Assembly (NCBI RefSeq): GCF_900177615.1
Contig: NZ_FXAP01000003.1
Location: forward strand, 372,001 to 436,000
Direction: 5' to 3'
Source of the DNA: Plantibacter flavus
GTDB lineage: Bacteria; Actinomycetota; Actinomycetes; Actinomycetales; Microbacteriaceae
DNA: 64,000 nucleotides
Shown: in pieces, positions 13,438 to 60,300 of the stretch
Layout of the letters: every line of letters starts with the position of its first letter
Numbering within the stretch: position 1 is the stretch's first letter
The notes under the pieces: model-generated
The model's database searches: none
The model's input: the letters and a program-made list of their open reading frames with translations, nothing else
Told to the model about the DNA's origin: nothing
Position numbers and translations under genes: made by a program

Positions 13438-13441
<4 letters not shown>
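12644..13441 (-). CDS. ABC importer ATPase, OppF-like
   Basis: 265 residues with a full nucleotide-binding domain: Walker A GQSGSGKST (about 41-49), signature LSGGQRQR, Walker B LLIADEP and the switch His in ITHDLA. It forms the heterodimeric motor with the OppD-like ATPase encoded just upstream; starts and stops overlap on both sides. No sign of damage. Confidence 0.93.
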
Positions 13442-14284
<843 letters not shown>

Positions 14285-14310
<26 letters not shown>

Positions 14311-14397
14311 TGCATGAGTCCGTTCTGTGCTGGTGAGGAGCGGCGCCGGACCGTCAGCAGGTCGTCGTTGGTCACTGCATGAGTCCGTTCTGTGCTG
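14285..14397 (-). repeat. 65-bp tandem duplication of the OppD start, creating a mini-ORF
   Basis: A 48-bp block (14285-14332) recurs exactly at 14350-14397, offset 65 bp. Each copy holds the GTG start, the first codons and the upstream AACGGACTCATGCA leader of the ATPase gene. The outer copy is read as a mini-ORF (14307-14375, minus strand) of 22 residues that begins MTNDDLLTV and ends NGLMQ. Its TGA overlaps the real GTG start. Seen directly in the sequence. Confidence 0.85.
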
Positions 14398-17460: not shown

Positions 17461-17545
17461 CCCGTCCGGCCGCTCGTCGAGCGCCCTCCTCCGGTCCCCA
17501 AGCCCGCAGAAGAGCACATGGACACGCGAATCGCGCGCCCTTCCC

Positions 17546-17984
17546 CCGGTCCCCGAGCCCGTCGAAGGGCCCACGGAGACCCTCACGAATCCCGCGCGCT
17601 TCCAGCGGTCCCTGAGCTTGTCGAGGGGCACACGGACCCGCGAATCGGGCACCCTTCCCGCGGTCCCTGAGCCTGTCGAAGGACCCACGGAAGAACCCCA
17701 CGAACCCGGCATACCTCCTCCGGTCCCTGAGCCTGTCGAAGGACCCACGGAAGAACCCCACGAACCCGGCATGCCTCCCCCGGCCCCTGAGCCTGTCGAA
17801 GGGCCCACGAAGACCCCAACGAACCCGGCACACCTCCCCCGGTCCCTGAGCCTGTCGAAGGGCCCACGGAAGAACCCCACGAACCCGGCACGCCTCCCCC
17901 GGTCCCTGAGCCTGTCGAAGGACCCACGGAAGAACCCCACGAACCCGGCATCCCTCCTCCGGCCCCTGAGCCTGTCGAAGGGCG
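17546..17984. repeat. Hairpin-repeat cluster B, about 60-bp tandem period
   Basis: Eight copies of the reverse-oriented element GGTCCCTGAGCCTGTCGAAG. The last six are spaced 59-60 bp by a shared spacer (CCCACGGAAGAACCCCACG, then AACCCGGCAT). Because 60 is a multiple of three, several frames stay open and translate as proline-rich repeats (VPEPVEGPTEEPHEPG). I treat these as artefacts. The array fills the 593-bp gap before the HNH gene; nothing else is visible there. Confidence 0.9.
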
Positions 17985-18053
17985 CACGAGCAACGTCCAC
18001 AATCGGCTCGACTCAGCATCTGGAATGTCAGTGGTCCATGGTGGACTGGTTCC

Positions 18054-19322: not shown

Positions 19323-19348
19323 CCAGGAACGACGAGGTGTTCTCGTGG

Positions 19349-19765
19349 GCACTTCGACAAGCTCAGTGACCGGAAGAAGTGTGCCCGAACCGTTTCGGTC
19401 CCAGAGCCTGTCGAAGGGTTCCTCGTGAGCACTTCGACAAGCTCAGTGACCGGGAGAAGTGTGCCCGAACCGTTTCGGCCCCAGAGCCTGTCGAAGGGTT
19501 CCTCGTGAGCACTTCGACAAGCTCAGTGACCGGGAGAAGTGTGCCCGAACCGTTTCGGTCCCTGAGCCTGTCGAAGGGCAGCCGAGCCGCACCACCTCGG
19601 TGACCGGAAGAGGTTCACCCGGATACACCCGGACCCAGAGCCTGTCGAAGGGTTCCTCGTGCGCACTTCGACAAGCTCAGTGACCGGAAGAAGTGTCCCC
19701 CCAACCGTTTCGGTCCCTGAGCCTGTCGAAGGGCAGCCAAGCCGCACCACCTCGGTGACCGGAAG
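19349..19765. repeat. Hairpin-repeat cluster C, 80-bp tandem period
   Basis: Alternating elements of the two orientations (CACTTCGACAAGCTCAGTG and GAGCCTGTCGAAGGG) repeat with an 80-bp period over the first three units, then more loosely. Each head-to-head pair could fold into a longer imperfect stem. The array fills the convergent gap between the HNH gene and the mycothiol-enzyme-like gene; no other signal is seen. Confidence 0.9.
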
Positions 19766-37378: not shown

Positions 37379-38005
37379 ATGCAGGCCAGCGCGTTCGCGT
37401 CGATCGACGTCGACACCATCCGTCGGTCGCTCGGCGAACCGGATCCCGCGGCGACGGCCAAGATCATGGACGAGCTCGACGAGAACTGCCTCGCCTTCCT
37501 CGCCCACTCGCCGTTCTGCACCATCGCGACGTCCGACGCCGACGGCCGGTGCGACAACTCCCCGCGCGGGGACTACCCGGGGTTCGTCCGGGCGCTCGAC
37601 ACCCGCACACTCGTGATCCCGGAGCGCCTCGGCAACCGCCTGGCCGACTCCCTGCAGAACATCGTCCAGAACGGCCACATCGGCATGCTGTGCTTCGTCC
37701 CCGGCATGAGCGAGACCCTCCGGATCAACGGCACGGCCACCGTCACCGACGACCCGGCACTGATGGCCATGCTCGAGCAGGACCACGTGACGCCGCAGCT
37801 CGCGATCGTCGTGCGCACCGAGGAGGTCTACCTGCACTGCGGGCGGGCACTCCTCCGCGGCGGGCTGTGGGACGCCGAGATGCAGGAGCTCGCGGCCGAG
37901 GTGCCGAGCGCGGGTCGGATCTGGGCGAGCATGTCGGGCCTCAGCACCGAGGTCGGCGACGCCATCGACGAGGCGGTCGCCGTCGGGAACCAGAGCCTGT
38001 ACTGA
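37379..38005 (+). CDS. PPOX-class FMN-dependent protein (MSMEG_1061-like)
   Basis: 208 residues of the pyridoxamine-phosphate-oxidase-like split barrel: FCTIATSDADGRCDNSPRGD, the LVIPERLGNRLADSLQNI segment and RINGTATVTDDPAL. These actinobacterial proteins bind FMN or F420; the reaction is unknown. AGAAGGGG precedes the ATG by about 8 nt. Its stop codon (TGATG) leads into a chain of three mini-ORFs ending at the start of the reductase gene, which suggests coupled synthesis of a flavoprotein and an electron-transfer partner. Confidence 0.87.
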   Translation: MQASAFASIDVDTIRRSLGEPDPAATAKIMDELDENCLAFLAHSPFCTIATSDADGRCDNSPRGDYPGFVRALDTRTLVIPERLGNRLADSLQNIVQNGHIGMLCFVPGMSETLRINGTATVTDDPALMAMLEQDHVTPQLAIVVRTEEVYLHCGRALLRGGLWDAEMQELAAEVPSAGRIWASMSGLSTEVGDAIDEAVAVGNQSLY

Positions 38006-38200
38006 TGGCTGGAAGCAACGAGCCTGCACTGATGGCTGAAAGCAGGAGGGGCTACTGATGCGCAACCGCGCAGGCATGACCGGTCCTGATCTCCAGATCG
38101 GCGATGCTACCGATATGAGGGATTCCTGATGCGCAACCGCGCGGGCATGACCGGTCCTGATCTCCAGATCGGCGATGCCATCGACACGAGGGATTCCTGA
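38005..38200 (+). other. Chain of three mini-ORFs joined by TGATG, with a 71-bp tandem repeat
   Basis: Mini-ORF 1 (38005-38058, 17 residues), mini-ORF 2 (38058-38129, 23 residues) and mini-ORF 3 (38129-38200, 23 residues) each begin in the TGATG that ends the previous frame. The third ends on the start codon of the reductase gene. Mini-ORFs 2 and 3 begin with the same codons as the reductase (MRNRAGMT), because its start and ribosome site (GAGGGATTCC) have been copied twice with a 71-bp period. An AGGAGGGG site precedes mini-ORF 2. Whether the peptides matter or only the reinitiation does is not known. Confidence 0.8.
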
Positions 38201-39144
38201 TGCGCAACCGCGCGGGCATGACCCCGCTCATCGTCCAGGAGATCGTCCGCGAGACGCCGACGATCGTCAGCGTCGTGCTCGCCGATCCGGAGGGTCACCG
38301 GCTCCCGCCGTGGGACCCAGGAGCGCACATCGACCTGCAGCTCATCACCCGCCACGAACGGCAGTACTCGCTCTGCGGTGATCCGGCGGACGAATACCGG
38401 TACCGGATCGCCGTCCTGCGGGAGGAGCACTCGCGGGGCGCCTCGCACTACATCCACAACTTCCTCAAGGTCGGTCGGAAGGTGTTCATCCGGCCGCCGC
38501 GGAACCTGTTCCCGCTCTCGGACGCGAAGCGGCACCTGCTCCTCGCGGCCGGCATCGGGATCACGCCGCTGCTCTCGATGGCCCGACGGTTGGCCGCGGG
38601 CGACGCCGACTGGACCCTCGTCTACGCGGTGCGCACGCGGGAGGACATCGCGTTCGCGCCGGAGCTCGAAGCCCTGGGCGACCACGTGCGGATCCATGTC
38701 AGCGCGGAGAGCGGTCGACTCGACCTGGCCGGCCTCCTCGCTGCACTCGAGCCGGGCACCGACGTGTCGGCCTGCGGGCCGCGCGGGTTCACGGACACCC
38801 TCACGAACCTGGCCGAGACACTGCCCGAGGACTGCCGGTTGCACCTCGAGCGGTTCGAGCCCAAGCCCCGCTCCTACCTGCCGAACACGGCGTTCACCGT
38901 CGAGTGCGCGAGGTCGGAGCGGACCGTCGAGGTTCCCGCCGGGCAGACGATGCTGCAGGCGATGCAGGCCGCGCGGGTCGGTGTCGCCGGGTCGTGCATG
39001 CGCGGGGTCTGCGGCTCCTGTGCCGTGCAGGTGGTTGACGGGACGCCGGAGCATCGCGACTCCCTGACGACCGATGACGCGTCGATGATCATGTACCCGT
39101 GCGTATCGCGGTCGCTGACGCCGACCCTCGTGATCGACGCGTAG
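38200..39144 (+). CDS. Phthalate-dioxygenase-reductase-type ferredoxin reductase
   Basis: 314 residues in the PDR order: flavin-binding barrel (RQYSLCGDP), NAD domain (LLAAGIGITPLLSMARR) and C-terminal plant-type [2Fe-2S] domain with Cys266, Cys271, Cys274 and Cys301 (C-x4-C-x2-C-x26-C). It passes electrons from NAD(P)H to an oxygenase, not encoded nearby. The start is the third copy of a duplicated initiation region (GAGGG, 7 nt, ATG). Followed by hairpin-repeat cluster D. Confidence 0.93.
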   Translation: MRNRAGMTPLIVQEIVRETPTIVSVVLADPEGHRLPPWDPGAHIDLQLITRHERQYSLCGDPADEYRYRIAVLREEHSRGASHYIHNFLKVGRKVFIRPPRNLFPLSDAKRHLLLAAGIGITPLLSMARRLAAGDADWTLVYAVRTREDIAFAPELEALGDHVRIHVSAESGRLDLAGLLAALEPGTDVSACGPRGFTDTLTNLAETLPEDCRLHLERFEPKPRSYLPNTAFTVECARSERTVEVPAGQTMLQAMQAARVGVAGSCMRGVCGSCAVQVVDGTPEHRDSLTTDDASMIMYPCVSRSLTPTLVIDA

Positions 39145-40387: not shown

Positions 40388-40710
40388 TCAGATCACCCCG
40401 TCGGAACGCAACACGGCGATGCGGTCGGCAGGCTGCTCCGTCCGGGCCACGGCTCCCACTCAGATCACCCCGTCGGAACGCAACACGGCGATGCGGTCGG
40501 CAGGCTGCTCCGTCCGGGCCACGGCTCCCACTCAGATCACCCCGTCGGAACGCAACACGGCGATGCGGTCGGCAGGCTGCTCCGTCCGGGCCACGGCTCC
40601 CACTCAGATCACCCCGTCGGAACGCAGTGCGACGATGCGGTCGGCAGGCTGCTCTGTCCGGGCCACGGCTCCCACTCAGATCACCCCGTCGGAACGCAAC
40701 GCGGCGATGC
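40361..40710 (-). repeat. Five-fold 72-bp junction repeat with four in-frame mini-ORFs
   Basis: Exact 72-bp period (element starts at 40361, 40433, 40505, 40577, 40649) covers the last codons of the CoA-transferase and the first codons of the hydratase. On the minus strand it reads as four consecutive 24-codon frames, 40604-40675, 40532-40603, 40460-40531 and 40388-40459. Each begins MGAVARTEQPADRI, ends RSDGVI, and has TGA directly followed by GTG. All are in the same frame as both flanking genes, so only TGA codons separate the six coding units. Confidence 0.9.
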
Positions 40711-41953
40711 GACCGGCGCCGTACCCGGCGAGCGCCGTGAGCACGTCGTCCGCGTGTTCGCCCATGTGGTTCGCCGGACGGTCGGTGGTCGCAGGGGTCG
40801 CGCTCAGTTTGATGGGCTGGCCGAAGGAGCGGAGGGTGCCGAAGGAGCCGTAGTCGGTCTCGACGACCATCTCGCGTTCGGCGGTCCCGGGGTCGTCGAC
40901 GACCTCGCCGATGGTCTTCACGGCGGTGAGCGGGACGACGTCGCCGGCCAGCTCCTCGAGCTCGGCACGGGTGCGGTCCGCGAACCAGGAGATGACGAGC
41001 GGCTTGACGCGGCGGGCGTAGACCTCCTCGTCGAATCGCTTGCGCATGGTGTCGATCTCGGGGTCGGCGATCGCCTCGGGCGTGCCGAACAGCTCGCAGC
41101 TGGCCTTCCAGAGCTTGTCGGTGTACGCGCCGAAGAACACCTGGCCGTCGGCACAAGGGAACAGCTCGTACGGCCGCACCCAGGCGTGTTCGTTGCCGGA
41201 CGGCGAGGCGACGGTCCCGTCGACGGTGTAGTCGACCACGGCGGTCTCGGTCATCGCGATGATGCTGTCGACCTGGGCGACGTCGACGAGTTGGCCGACG
41301 CCGGTGCGCTCGGCGTGGCGGAGGGCGGCGAGGGTGCCGATGACGCCGAACATCGTGGCGGACAGGTCGCCGATGGTGACGCCGACGCGCACGGGCGGCT
41401 GGTCCGCGTAACCGTTCATGGACCAGAGCCCGCCGGCGGCCTGTGCCGTGTTGTCGAACGCCGGACGCCGGCTCCGGGCACCCGTCTGTCCGTAGCCGGA
41501 GATCGCGGTGTACACGAGCTTCGGGTTGATGGCGGCGAGCGCCTCGTACGGCAGGCCGAGCTTGGCCATCGTCCCCGGGCGGAAGTTCTCGACGAGGACG
41601 TCGGCGCTCGCGACGAGGTCGCGCAGCACCTCCTTGCCGGCCTCGCTCGCGAGGTCGAGCGCCAGGCCGAACTTGCCGCGGTTGTACTGGCCGTAGTAGC
41701 CGCTGAACTCCTCGTCGCCGTCGCGCAGGTACGGCGGGAAGCCCCGGGAGACGTCGGGGTCGTTCGGGTTCTCGATCTTGATGACGGTGGCGCCGAGGTC
41801 GGCGAGCATCGACGCCGCGTAGGGGCCGGCGAGGACGCGGGAAAGGTCGAGGACCACGACGCCCTCGAGCGAGCCGGGCGGGACGGCGAGTCGTTCCGTG
41901 GCGGCGAGGATCGCTTCGGGGTCGGCTCCGGTCGACGGCTGGTGCTCGGTCAT
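40676..41953 (-). CDS. CaiB/BaiF-family CoA-transferase
   Basis: 425 residues of the family III CoA-transferase fold: VVVLDLSRVLAGPYAASMLA, LGATVIKIENP, NRGKFGLALDLASEAG, LVENFRPGTM and FDNTAQAAGG, where the Asp (about 167) sits at the usual catalytic position. It moves CoA between carboxylic acids. The adjoining hydratase suggests itaconate, mesaconate or a related C5 acid, but the expected citramalyl-CoA lyase is not in the window. GGAGGA lies about 7 nt before the ATG. The C-terminal codons are part of the 72-bp repeat. Confidence 0.92.
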   Translation of the reverse strand: MTEHQPSTGADPEAILAATERLAVPPGSLEGVVVLDLSRVLAGPYAASMLADLGATVIKIENPNDPDVSRGFPPYLRDGDEEFSGYYGQYNRGKFGLALDLASEAGKEVLRDLVASADVLVENFRPGTMAKLGLPYEALAAINPKLVYTAISGYGQTGARSRRPAFDNTAQAAGGLWSMNGYADQPPVRVGVTIGDLSATMFGVIGTLAALRHAERTGVGQLVDVAQVDSIIAMTETAVVDYTVDGTVASPSGNEHAWVRPYELFPCADGQVFFGAYTDKLWKASCELFGTPEAIADPEIDTMRKRFDEEVYARRVKPLVISWFADRTRAELEELAGDVVPLTAVKTIGEVVDDPGTAEREMVVETDYGSFGTLRSFGQPIKLSATPATTDRPANHMGEHADDVLTALAGYGAGRIAALRSDGVI

Positions 41954-47636: not shown

Positions 47637-48470
47637 GTCCCTGAGCCTGTCGAAGGGCGACGTCACCCGTAGGCACTTCGACAAGCTCAGTGACCGGCGG
47701 AGGTGAGCTCAGTGACCGGGAGGGGTGAGCTCAGTGACCGGGAGGCCAAGCTCCGTGACCGGGAGGCCAAGCTCCGTGACCGGGAGGCCAAGCTCCGTGA
47801 CCGGGAGGCCAAGCTCAGTGACCGGAAGGGCAGGTCCATGACCGGAAGAAGGCCAACCCGGCGAACCCGGTCCCTGAGCCTGTCGAAGGGCGACGTCAGC
47901 CCGAGTGCACTTCGACAAGCTCAGTGACCGGGAGAGGTGAGCTCAGTGACCGGGAGAGGTGAGCTCAGTGACCGGAAGAGGTGAGCCCGGCGCCCGGAAG
48001 AAGGCCAACCCGGCGAACCCGGTCCCTGAGCCTGTCGAAGGGCGACGTCAGCCCGAGTGCACTTCGACAAGCTCAGTGACCGGAAGAGGTGAGCTCAGTG
48101 ACCGGAAGAGGTGAGCCCGGCGCCCGGAAGAAGGCCAACCCGGCGAACCCGGTCCCTGAGCCTGTCGAAGGGCGACGTCAGCCCGAGTGCACTTCGACAA
48201 GCTCAGTGACCGGAAGAGGTGAGCTCAGTGACCGGGAGAGGTGAGCTCAGTGACCGGAAGAGGTGAGCCCGGCGCCCGGAAGAAGGCCAACCCGGCGAAC
48301 CCGGTCCCTGAGCCTGTCGAAGGGCGACGTCAGCCCGAGTGCACTTCGACAAGCTCAGTGACCGGGAGAGGTGAGCTCAGTGACCGGGAGGCCAAGCTCC
48401 GTGACCGGGAGGCCAAGCTCAGTGACCGGCGGAGGTGAGCTCAATGACCGGCGGACTTGAGCTCAGTGAC
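47637..48470. repeat. Hairpin-repeat cluster E, the longest array (about 830 bp)
   Basis: Five head-to-head pairs of CCCTGAGCCTGTCGAAGGG and CACTTCGACAAGCTCAGTG are embedded in larger blocks of 126 to 154 bp that recur three to four times. They include the shared spacer GAAGAAGGCCAACCCGGCG. Runs of degenerate half-elements (GAGCTCAGTGACCGG) lie between. It fills the gap between the MFS gene and the convergent ABC ATPase. I find no gene in it. Confidence 0.92.
47734..47817. repeat. Perfect 21-bp minisatellite inside cluster E
   Basis: GTGACCGGGAGGCCAAGCTC plus C or A is repeated four times without interruption and again one to two times near 48386-48430. The unit contains the GTGACCGG foot of the hairpin element but not its stem. 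Confidence 0.85.
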
Positions 48471-48500
48471 CGTACGCGGCCCGGCCGAGCAGCCGGGCCG

Positions 48501-59947: not shown

Positions 59948-60300
59948 GGTCATTGAGCCTGTCGAAATGCAACGCGGACCAACCCGCCCTTCGACAAGCT
60001 CAGGGACCGAGTAGTCCCGGTCATTGAGCCGAGCCCGGTCATCGAACCGAGACACGGTCATTGAGCCTGTCGAAATGCACCCGGACGAACCCCGCCCTTC
60101 GACAAGCTCAGGGACCGAGGGGGCCACTCAGGGAGTGAGGGGGCCACTCAGGGACCGAGGGGGCCACTCAGGGACCGAGGGGGCCACTCAGGGAGTGAGG
60201 GGGCCACTCAGGGAGCGAGGGGCCACTCAGGGAGTGAGGGGGCCGCTCGGGGACCGAGGGCGCCACTCAGGGACCGAGGGGGCCGCTCGGGGACCGAGCA
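59948..60300. repeat. Hairpin-repeat cluster F with a 20-bp half-element minisatellite
   Basis: Two head-to-head pairs, CATTGAGCCTGTCGAAATG with CCCTTCGACAAGCTCAGGG, are followed by about nine tandem copies of a 20-bp unit GGGGGCCACTCAGGGACCGA and its variant ending AGTGA. The unit keeps the CTCAGGGACCGA foot of the element but has lost the TTCGACA part. It fills the convergent gap between the PdxH-like and MMPL genes; no gene is seen. Confidence 0.9.

Follow-up and report, generated by a model that had tools for sequence, protein, structure and literature searches.

Mini-ORF relays at gene junctions of Plantibacter probably stem from tandem junction duplication and may sustain termination-reinitiation

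Introduction

How do three very short reading frames come to lie between a flavoprotein gene and an oxidoreductase gene, each joined to its neighbours by a TGATG stop-start overlap, and would ribosomes be handed along them? The locus that raises this question lies in a 64,000-nucleotide stretch of Plantibacter flavus DNA (contig NZ_FXAP01000003.1, positions 372,001 to 436,000; this whole stretch is hereafter the window). A first-pass annotation made from the letters of the window had presented the arrangement as an unusual relay laid out for reinitiation. Our analysis indicates that tandem duplication of the PPOX/reductase stop-start junction probably gave rise to coupled mini-cistrons that would sustain termination-reinitiation, a reading drawn from the sequence and its comparison between genomes.

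Results

Anatomy of the PPOX/reductase relay

The elements of the locus are as follows; the flavoprotein was assigned by its profile score, the oxidoreductase by domain matches and the SD-like sites by energy, and the other features were read from the sequence.

37379-38005, + strand: PPOX-type FMN-dependent flavoprotein gene, MSMEG_1061 family (TIGR04025), 208 aa; 219.2 bits (cut-off 170), also PF01243
37993-38044, + strand: 27-bp tandem duplication spanning the PPOX end and mini-ORF 1
38003-38007, + strand: TGATG overlap 1 (PPOX stop / mini-ORF 1 start)
38005-38058, + strand: mini-ORF 1, 17 codons, MAGSNEPALMAESRRGY, with the 27-bp in-frame tandem duplication
38044-38051, + strand: SD-like AGGAGGGG ahead of mini-ORF 2, -10.5 kcal/mol
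38056-38060, + strand: TGATG overlap 2
38058-38129, + strand: mini-ORF 2, 23 codons, MRNRAGMTGPDLQIGDATDMRDS; copy 1 of the 71-bp unit is 38058-38128
38117-38121, + strand: SD-like GAGGG ahead of mini-ORF 3, -6.7 kcal/mol
38127-38131, + strand: TGATG overlap 3
38129-38200, + strand: mini-ORF 3, 23 codons, MRNRAGMTGPDLQIGDAIDTRDS; copy 2 of the 71-bp unit is 38129-38199
38166-38185, + strand: unit segment like PPOX 37950-37969, by sequence comparison
38188-38192, + strand: SD-like GAGGG ahead of the reductase, -6.1 kcal/mol
38198-38202, + strand: TGATG overlap 4 (mini-ORF 3 stop / reductase start)
38200-39144, + strand: oxidoreductase gene with NAD_binding_1 and 2Fe-2S Fer2 domains, 314 aa

All four TGATG overlaps that the first-pass annotation had drawn from PPOX through mini-ORFs of 17, 23 and 23 codons to the reductase were found in place, and the -1 frame change that it described is present at every step. 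The GAGGG motif that it named is present at 38117-38121 and 38188-38192; the first 23-codon ORF has a stronger site, AGGAGGGG. Aligned in register, the two 71-bp units share 93% identity. The 27-bp in-frame duplication within mini-ORF 1 is an additional feature, absent from that first description.

To set these overlaps against chance, we used a 344-kb sample of the same genome, composed of the window and 14 stretches of 20 kb each, which contains 628 TGATG motifs on both strands. Short ORFs between two TGATG numbered 11, four of them at the PPOX/reductase locus (one being a nested start). Ten order-2 Markov simulations produced 8-19 such ORFs each, so that the single TGATG-bounded ORFs elsewhere are at chance level. 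Linked TGATG-bounded ORFs numbered three at the relay locus, nested start included; there was none elsewhere in the 344 kb, none in nine simulations and one in the tenth. The relay is not unique: a second one lies in the window (see below). As a raw pattern, TGATG...GAGG...TGATG matched 39 times in the genome of the window.

The relay in seven Plantibacter genomes

We compared seven Plantibacter genomes, G000 to G006, where G000 is the genome of the window. All seven hold the PPOX-reductase pair with an unbroken relay: the mini-ORFs are open in 13 of 13 cases and the junctions are TGATG in 20 of 20, each a stop-start overlap on one strand as in TeRe-type pairs. Relatives with frameshifted mini-ORFs, which the first-pass annotation had named as evidence against its reading, did not occur among the seven, nor did any broken relay. 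Between one and three mini-ORFs are present per genome, and the insert that separates PPOX from the reductase measures 26 to 195 nt. Mini-ORF 1 has 8 codons in G003, G004 and G005 and 17 in G000, G001, G002 and G006. As had been anticipated, the copy number of the 71-bp unit differs between species, with no copy in G001, G004 and G006, one in G003 and G005, and two in G000 and G002.

On the gene tree, this copy-number pattern would need at least four changes, and an old 71-bp unit was probably lost three times and doubled once. The units of G005 and G003 differ at 8 of 71 sites. An AAT/AAC site near the start is equal in all copies and the reductase within G002, within G003 and within G000; this uniformity within a genome suggests homogenisation between copies.

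Judged by sequence only, the SD of each following gene lies within the leader ahead of it, and that leader stops at the start codon of the gene. The SD energy at the reductase start is moderate, ranging from -5.6 to -6.7 kcal/mol over the seven genomes, and each 71-bp copy carries an SD-like site. At the start of the first mini-ORF the SD is weak in six of the seven genomes (-2.1 to -2.6 kcal/mol) and reaches -5.8 in G004. The anti-SD used for these energies was found at a 16S-type 3' end in the genome of the window. Values of -6.9 or lower occur at 10% of the 659 + strand ATGs of the window, and values near -6 are thus not rare.

Origin of the 71-bp unit

The unit had been described as a duplication of the reductase start. 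This holds for its first 24 nt; the other 47 nt are of different sequence and in part resemble the 3' end of PPOX. Within those 47 nt, a stretch of 20 nt is identical at 18 positions to PPOX 37950-37969 in equal codon phase, a score that none of 20,000 random 120-nt windows reached (four reached 17). The SD-bearing tail of the unit resembles the tail of mini-ORF 1 by eye. By its composition, the 71-bp unit is best read as a duplicated PPOX/reductase junction and not merely as a copy of the reductase start. A tandem junction copy with a length of 2 modulo 3 yields a relay with -1 overlaps, and 71 fits. For the 71-bp unit together with mini-ORF 1, no other significant copy was found in any of the seven Plantibacter genomes. 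Outside the genus, the best partial match in 199 genomes searched was 31 nt at 87%.

The junction outside the genus

Ten orthologues of the PPOX-reductase pair, all from the family of Plantibacter but from other genera, were examined; the reductase-frame start was set at the first ATG or GTG followed by 250 or more open codons. In nine of them this start and the PPOX stop are -1 to +2 nt apart, twice as TGATG, and the SD energy in these nine abutting pairs is weak (-0.5 to -3.8 kcal/mol). PPOX ends in Leu-Tyr in all ten. The tenth pair (G051, L074) has a 33 nt gap with an 11-codon GTG ORF that starts 1 nt past the PPOX stop and, by eye, overlaps the reductase start by GTGA; it is possibly an independent relay. 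Judging from these orthologues, we infer that the PPOX stop and the reductase start were adjacent or overlapping in the genus ancestor, and that the reductase would have been reached by termination-reinitiation. The Plantibacter inserts would then have supplied an SD missing from the conserved PPOX end, with the overlap kept.

Tight PPOX/reductase coupling is not universal, since six of seven pairs outside the family show a gap (four of the class and two Streptomyces); the seventh abuts by TGATG (G728). The family search, limited to the stronger matches, gave 16 PPOX loci outside the genus, nine with the reductase and seven (below 50% identity) without it. A class search added ten PPOX loci, of which two abut the reductase (G762, of the same family, and G728), four are distant from it and four had no match. 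A scan of genome contigs returned 41 loci, six with a same-strand PPOX match: three in Plantibacter (G002, G005 and G006), two in Streptomyces, where 32 and 197 nt separate the PPOX stop from the reductase match that follows, and one in Mycobacterium, where PPOX lies downstream of that match.

A second relay between a CoA-transferase and a dehydratase gene

The second relay of the window lies on the opposite strand, close to the first.

40676-41953, - strand: CoA-transferase family III gene, upstream gene, by domain match
40604-40675, - strand: second-relay mini-ORF 1, 23 codons, VGAVARTEQPADRIVALRSDGVI, with TGAGTG abutment
40532-40603, - strand: second-relay mini-ORF 2, 23 codons
40460-40531, - strand: second-relay mini-ORF 3, 23 codons
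40388-40459, - strand: second-relay mini-ORF 4, 23 codons
39530-40387, - strand: FAS1_DH-type dehydratase gene with GTG start, downstream gene, by domain match; MaoC match below cut-off

The mini-ORFs were read from the sequence, and all junctions abut as TGAGTG. The peptides begin with VGAVARTEQ, which is the start of the dehydratase, and end in ALRSDGVI or VLRSDGVI; the C-terminus of the CoA-transferase is RIAALRSDGVI. Each unit thus reads plainly, from these sequences, as the start of the downstream gene joined to the end of the upstream gene. The unit is 72 bp long, which is 0 modulo 3, the length class required for a gap of 0. Four copies are present in G000, one each in G003 and G006, and none in G001, G002, G004 and G005.

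Further loci and their frequency

A third case in the window lacks a coupled upstream gene, both of its features again lying on the - strand.

14307-14375, - strand: 22-codon leader ORF with GTGA overlap, from a 65-bp duplication of the ABC gene start, read from the sequence
13438-14310, - strand: ABC transporter ATP-binding gene, downstream of the leader, by domain match

This leader is present once in G000 and G001, twice in G004 and not in G002, G003 and G006; the locus was not found in the G005 stretches searched. The kdp operon, some 40 kb away from the reductase, holds two more cases (C7 of G000, L280 7444-7640 and L135 486-560, at the kdpA/kdpB and kdpD junctions). A 74-bp copy of the start of kdpD, a gene assigned by Pfam, forms a 22-codon ORF that stops 5 nt before kdpD; among six genomes compared, it is present in G000, G001, G002 and G004 and absent from G003 and G005. 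Between two genes that we take, from their position, to be kdpA and kdpB, a 92-bp unit gives 31-codon ORFs, with two copies in G000 and G002, one in G003 and G004, and none in G001 and G005. The kdpA stop is TAA in the two genomes without the unit and, in the four with it, TGA in an ATGA overlap with the mini-ORF start. At the junction of a C-C bond lyase gene and a PRTase/TRSP gene, a 77-bp unit gives a 26-codon ORF with GTGA overlaps; it is present in G000 and G003 and absent from G001 (three genomes compared). Another 74-bp case, of 25 codons, was found in G005, the only genome read for it.

The genus thus shows at least seven such loci, and wherever genomes could be compared, at six of them, the copy number differed. 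The mini-ORFs number 13 at PPOX/reductase, six at CoA-transferase/dehydratase, four at ABC, four at kdpD, six at kdpA/kdpB, two at PRTase/TRSP and one in the G005 case; all 36 are open with their stop -4 to +5 nt from the next start, a count that is partly built into the search, since it was as relays that several of the loci were recognised.

The first repeat scan was biased in that relays alone were sought. A second scan, of all non-REP tandem pairs, showed these to be few: 744 kb of G000 yielded 20, including a masked run. A third scan applied one rule to five sequence sets, with a REP filter built from Plantibacter motifs that may filter other genera less well, and yielded 54 pairs in G051 and five in G379. 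It found relays at four places in G000, none in 400 kb of G001 and none in 400 kb each of G379 and G051. The kdpD case was missed by this rule because of an indel, and the hits at kdpA/kdpB were antisense; kdpD and kdpA/kdpB were then read by script in the sense direction. On even sampling, Plantibacter showed two relays in 1,080 kb, both of them in the 680 kb sampled from G000 and neither in the 400 kb from G001, versus none in 800 kb of two other genera, numbers too small to speak for a difference. The region of the window is rich in relays, with three in 64 kb and the two of the nearby kdp operon.

Among the hits of the third-scan rule were also repeated starts that lie out of frame and belong to no relay. 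In Plantibacter, they comprised internal methionines, an antisense hit at units already known, and the L259 tandem pair of G001 (gap 84), where a start might have been duplicated with no relay formed; in the other genera they were five tandem pairs with a repeated start (L224 and L235; L261, L264 and L270). In G001, a 58-bp copy of the kdpB 3' end follows the stop codon of that gene, at a gene pair that does not overlap, with neither start nor relay (L193 2135-2243).

Long tandem arrays are a further trait of this DNA. They lie in the window at 17477-17990, 19342-19765, 47682-48472 and 60016-60298, most of them with REP-like units (CTGAGCCTGTCGAAG / CTTCGACAAGCTCAG). An 89-bp intergenic array of more than two copies stands directly upstream of a gene (L135 4614-4831), and G001 likewise has an 89-bp array (L192 17412-17559).

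Sequence change and signals in the array

Selection on the mini-ORF frames of the first locus was not demonstrable from sequence changes. None of about 28 changes among these mini-ORFs is nonsense, an outcome with a neutral probability of 0.74, and the open frames alone therefore prove little. When loss of ATG or TGATG was counted as well, the neutral probability was 0.008, or 0.074 without the exchangeable tails. Seven of the 13 variable sites of the unit are third positions, and the excess of silent changes is marginal (P 0.02-0.05) and partly shared with the reductase start. The predicted RNA fold of the array was no better than that of shuffled sequences (z -1.29), of which 21 in 200 folded equally well, simple consensus scans gave no promoter or terminator in the array, and no slippery run of the kind that would favour frameshifting through the overlaps was seen at the junctions by eye.

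Discussion

A model of junction duplication and reinitiation

The observations can be joined in the following model. A short element with an SD and a second TGATG would have arrived at the Plantibacter PPOX/reductase junction, and 71-bp copies, made of the reductase start, a PPOX-like 3' piece, an SD and a TGATG, would have been gained and lost by recombination between repeats. A ribosome finishing PPOX would reinitiate at the overlapping ATG and proceed mini-ORF by mini-ORF through TGATG to the reductase, each mini-ORF also spanning the SD of the following start. Like duplications would have taken place at further junctions and gene starts in Plantibacter, where copies that keep the relay survive and those that break it are presumably lost or selected against. 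It follows from the model that the mini-ORFs would be translated and ribosomes passed along to the reductase.

Work on other organisms bears on this point. Reinitiation at native pairs was reported to be nearly abolished by an intergenic distance of about 20-38 nt (PMC10666635). With such a limit, inserts of 26-195 nt should weaken or end coupling unless they are themselves translated up to the next start, and the need for translated inserts may be taken as an argument for the relay. The same source cites reporter studies with coupling across 73 nt and 150-850 nt, so that distance may not abolish coupling. Of five E. coli pairs, three lost 60-90% of their reinitiation when the SD was removed, and one lost all of it (PMC6728339).

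The main rival to reinitiation along the relay is that the array is an inert by-product, with the reductase initiated de novo at the last SD and ATG and the mini-ORFs acting as neutral spacers that are open as their pieces were coding. Every 71-bp copy would supply an entry site of its own, the lack of nonsense changes is uninformative, a duplication of the right length modulo 3 can create a relay by itself, and the kdpB 3'-end duplication in G001 is tolerated with neither start nor relay. Against this speak the moderate SDs at the reductase start, the kdpA stop, which is TAA where the unit is absent and TGA within ATGA where it is present, and the preservation of the relay in all seven recognised start or junction duplications; at free length the chance of the last would be about (1/3)^7, a figure to be read with the fact that recognition was partly by the relay itself. 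We consider an inert array unlikely, though worth serious weight. The claim of the first-pass annotation that stop-start overlaps serve reinitiation is the best reading of a relay unbroken in seven of seven genomes, and initiation at the last ATG only is a possible outcome given moderate SDs and uninformative open frames.

Regulatory leader peptides, or otherwise functional peptides working by attenuation or stalling, would account for the partial conservation of the peptides between copies and species. Several of their positions change, though (I/T, T/M and S/F/H), the number of ORFs varies from one to three, neither a terminator-like site nor an unusual fold accompanies them, and the peptides of the other loci differ, each resembling its own genes; we regard this explanation as very improbable. 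A mobile, dispersed repeat family such as MIRU, inserting at stop-start junctions, would explain the architecture, which resembles that of MIRU (PMC12548453). It is hardly tenable given that the 71-bp unit and mini-ORF 1 lack a second significant site within the genus, that their best likeness beyond it is the short partial match noted above, and that each locus has its own unit built from its own flanking genes. As a candidate, a dispersed element was rejected on the single site per genome of the 71-bp unit.

Under the reading preferred here, junction duplication with reinitiation along the relay, the number of units could further act as an evolvable dial of the downstream:upstream protein ratio, for instance at kdpA/kdpB or PPOX/reductase, each unit being either a reinitiation step or an SD-borne entry. 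This extension is tentative, and we think it doubtful. If it is true, an added unit resets that ratio at operon junctions. More generally, no mobile element is needed for extra coupled frames to appear, as the junction can itself give rise to them, and MIRU-like units may have had such an origin. The natural series of 0, 1, 2 and 4 copies between the same genes of related species makes the cost or gain per reinitiation step measurable. Chimeric mini-ORFs of this kind could easily be missed in annotation.

Comparison with known systems

MIRUs, which lie at many genome places, are by architecture the nearest known relatives of the Plantibacter units. Both are short tandem intergenic units with a small ORF coupled to the next gene and a copy number that varies between strains. 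The MIRU ORF lies at a start codon, coupled to its neighbouring gene with -4 nt spacing, and MIRUs are described as apparently mobile (PMC12548453). The senX3-regX3 region has three 77-bp MIRUs in H37Rv; that of CDC1551 carries two of 77 bp and one of 53 bp (PMC4213456). The Plantibacter units likewise contain a small ORF joined to a neighbour by stop-start overlap, a likeness of architecture only, with contacts of -1, 0 or -4 nt or small gaps. Unlike MIRUs, each unit tested occurs at a single place and is a chimera of the two genes between which it stands, the comparison being one of architecture and not of sequence; dispersal of the 71-bp unit or of mini-ORF 1 over the genome was seen in none of the seven genomes. 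Since they are not dispersed and are built from their own neighbours, we do not file them as MIRUs. Promoter activity was reported for the senX3-regX3 region (PMC4213456), whereas the simple scan gave none in the Plantibacter array. Among the titles and abstracts listed by searches of the open PMC literature, we found no report of such arrays outside mycobacteria.

The junction type itself is shared with termination-reinitiation pairs: 13 of 14 ATGA/TGATG overlapping pairs in E. coli and H. volcanii were coupled (PMC6728339). To this, Plantibacter adds up to four successive mini-ORF steps.

In bicistronic design, the leader holds the SD of the gene and stops at its start codon. A short leader ORF is there used to pass ribosomes on to the gene proper (PMC12548453, PMC5995908). 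Bicistronic design may be seen as the engineered counterpart of the relay, of which the Plantibacter version is natural, born of duplication and arranged in tandem.
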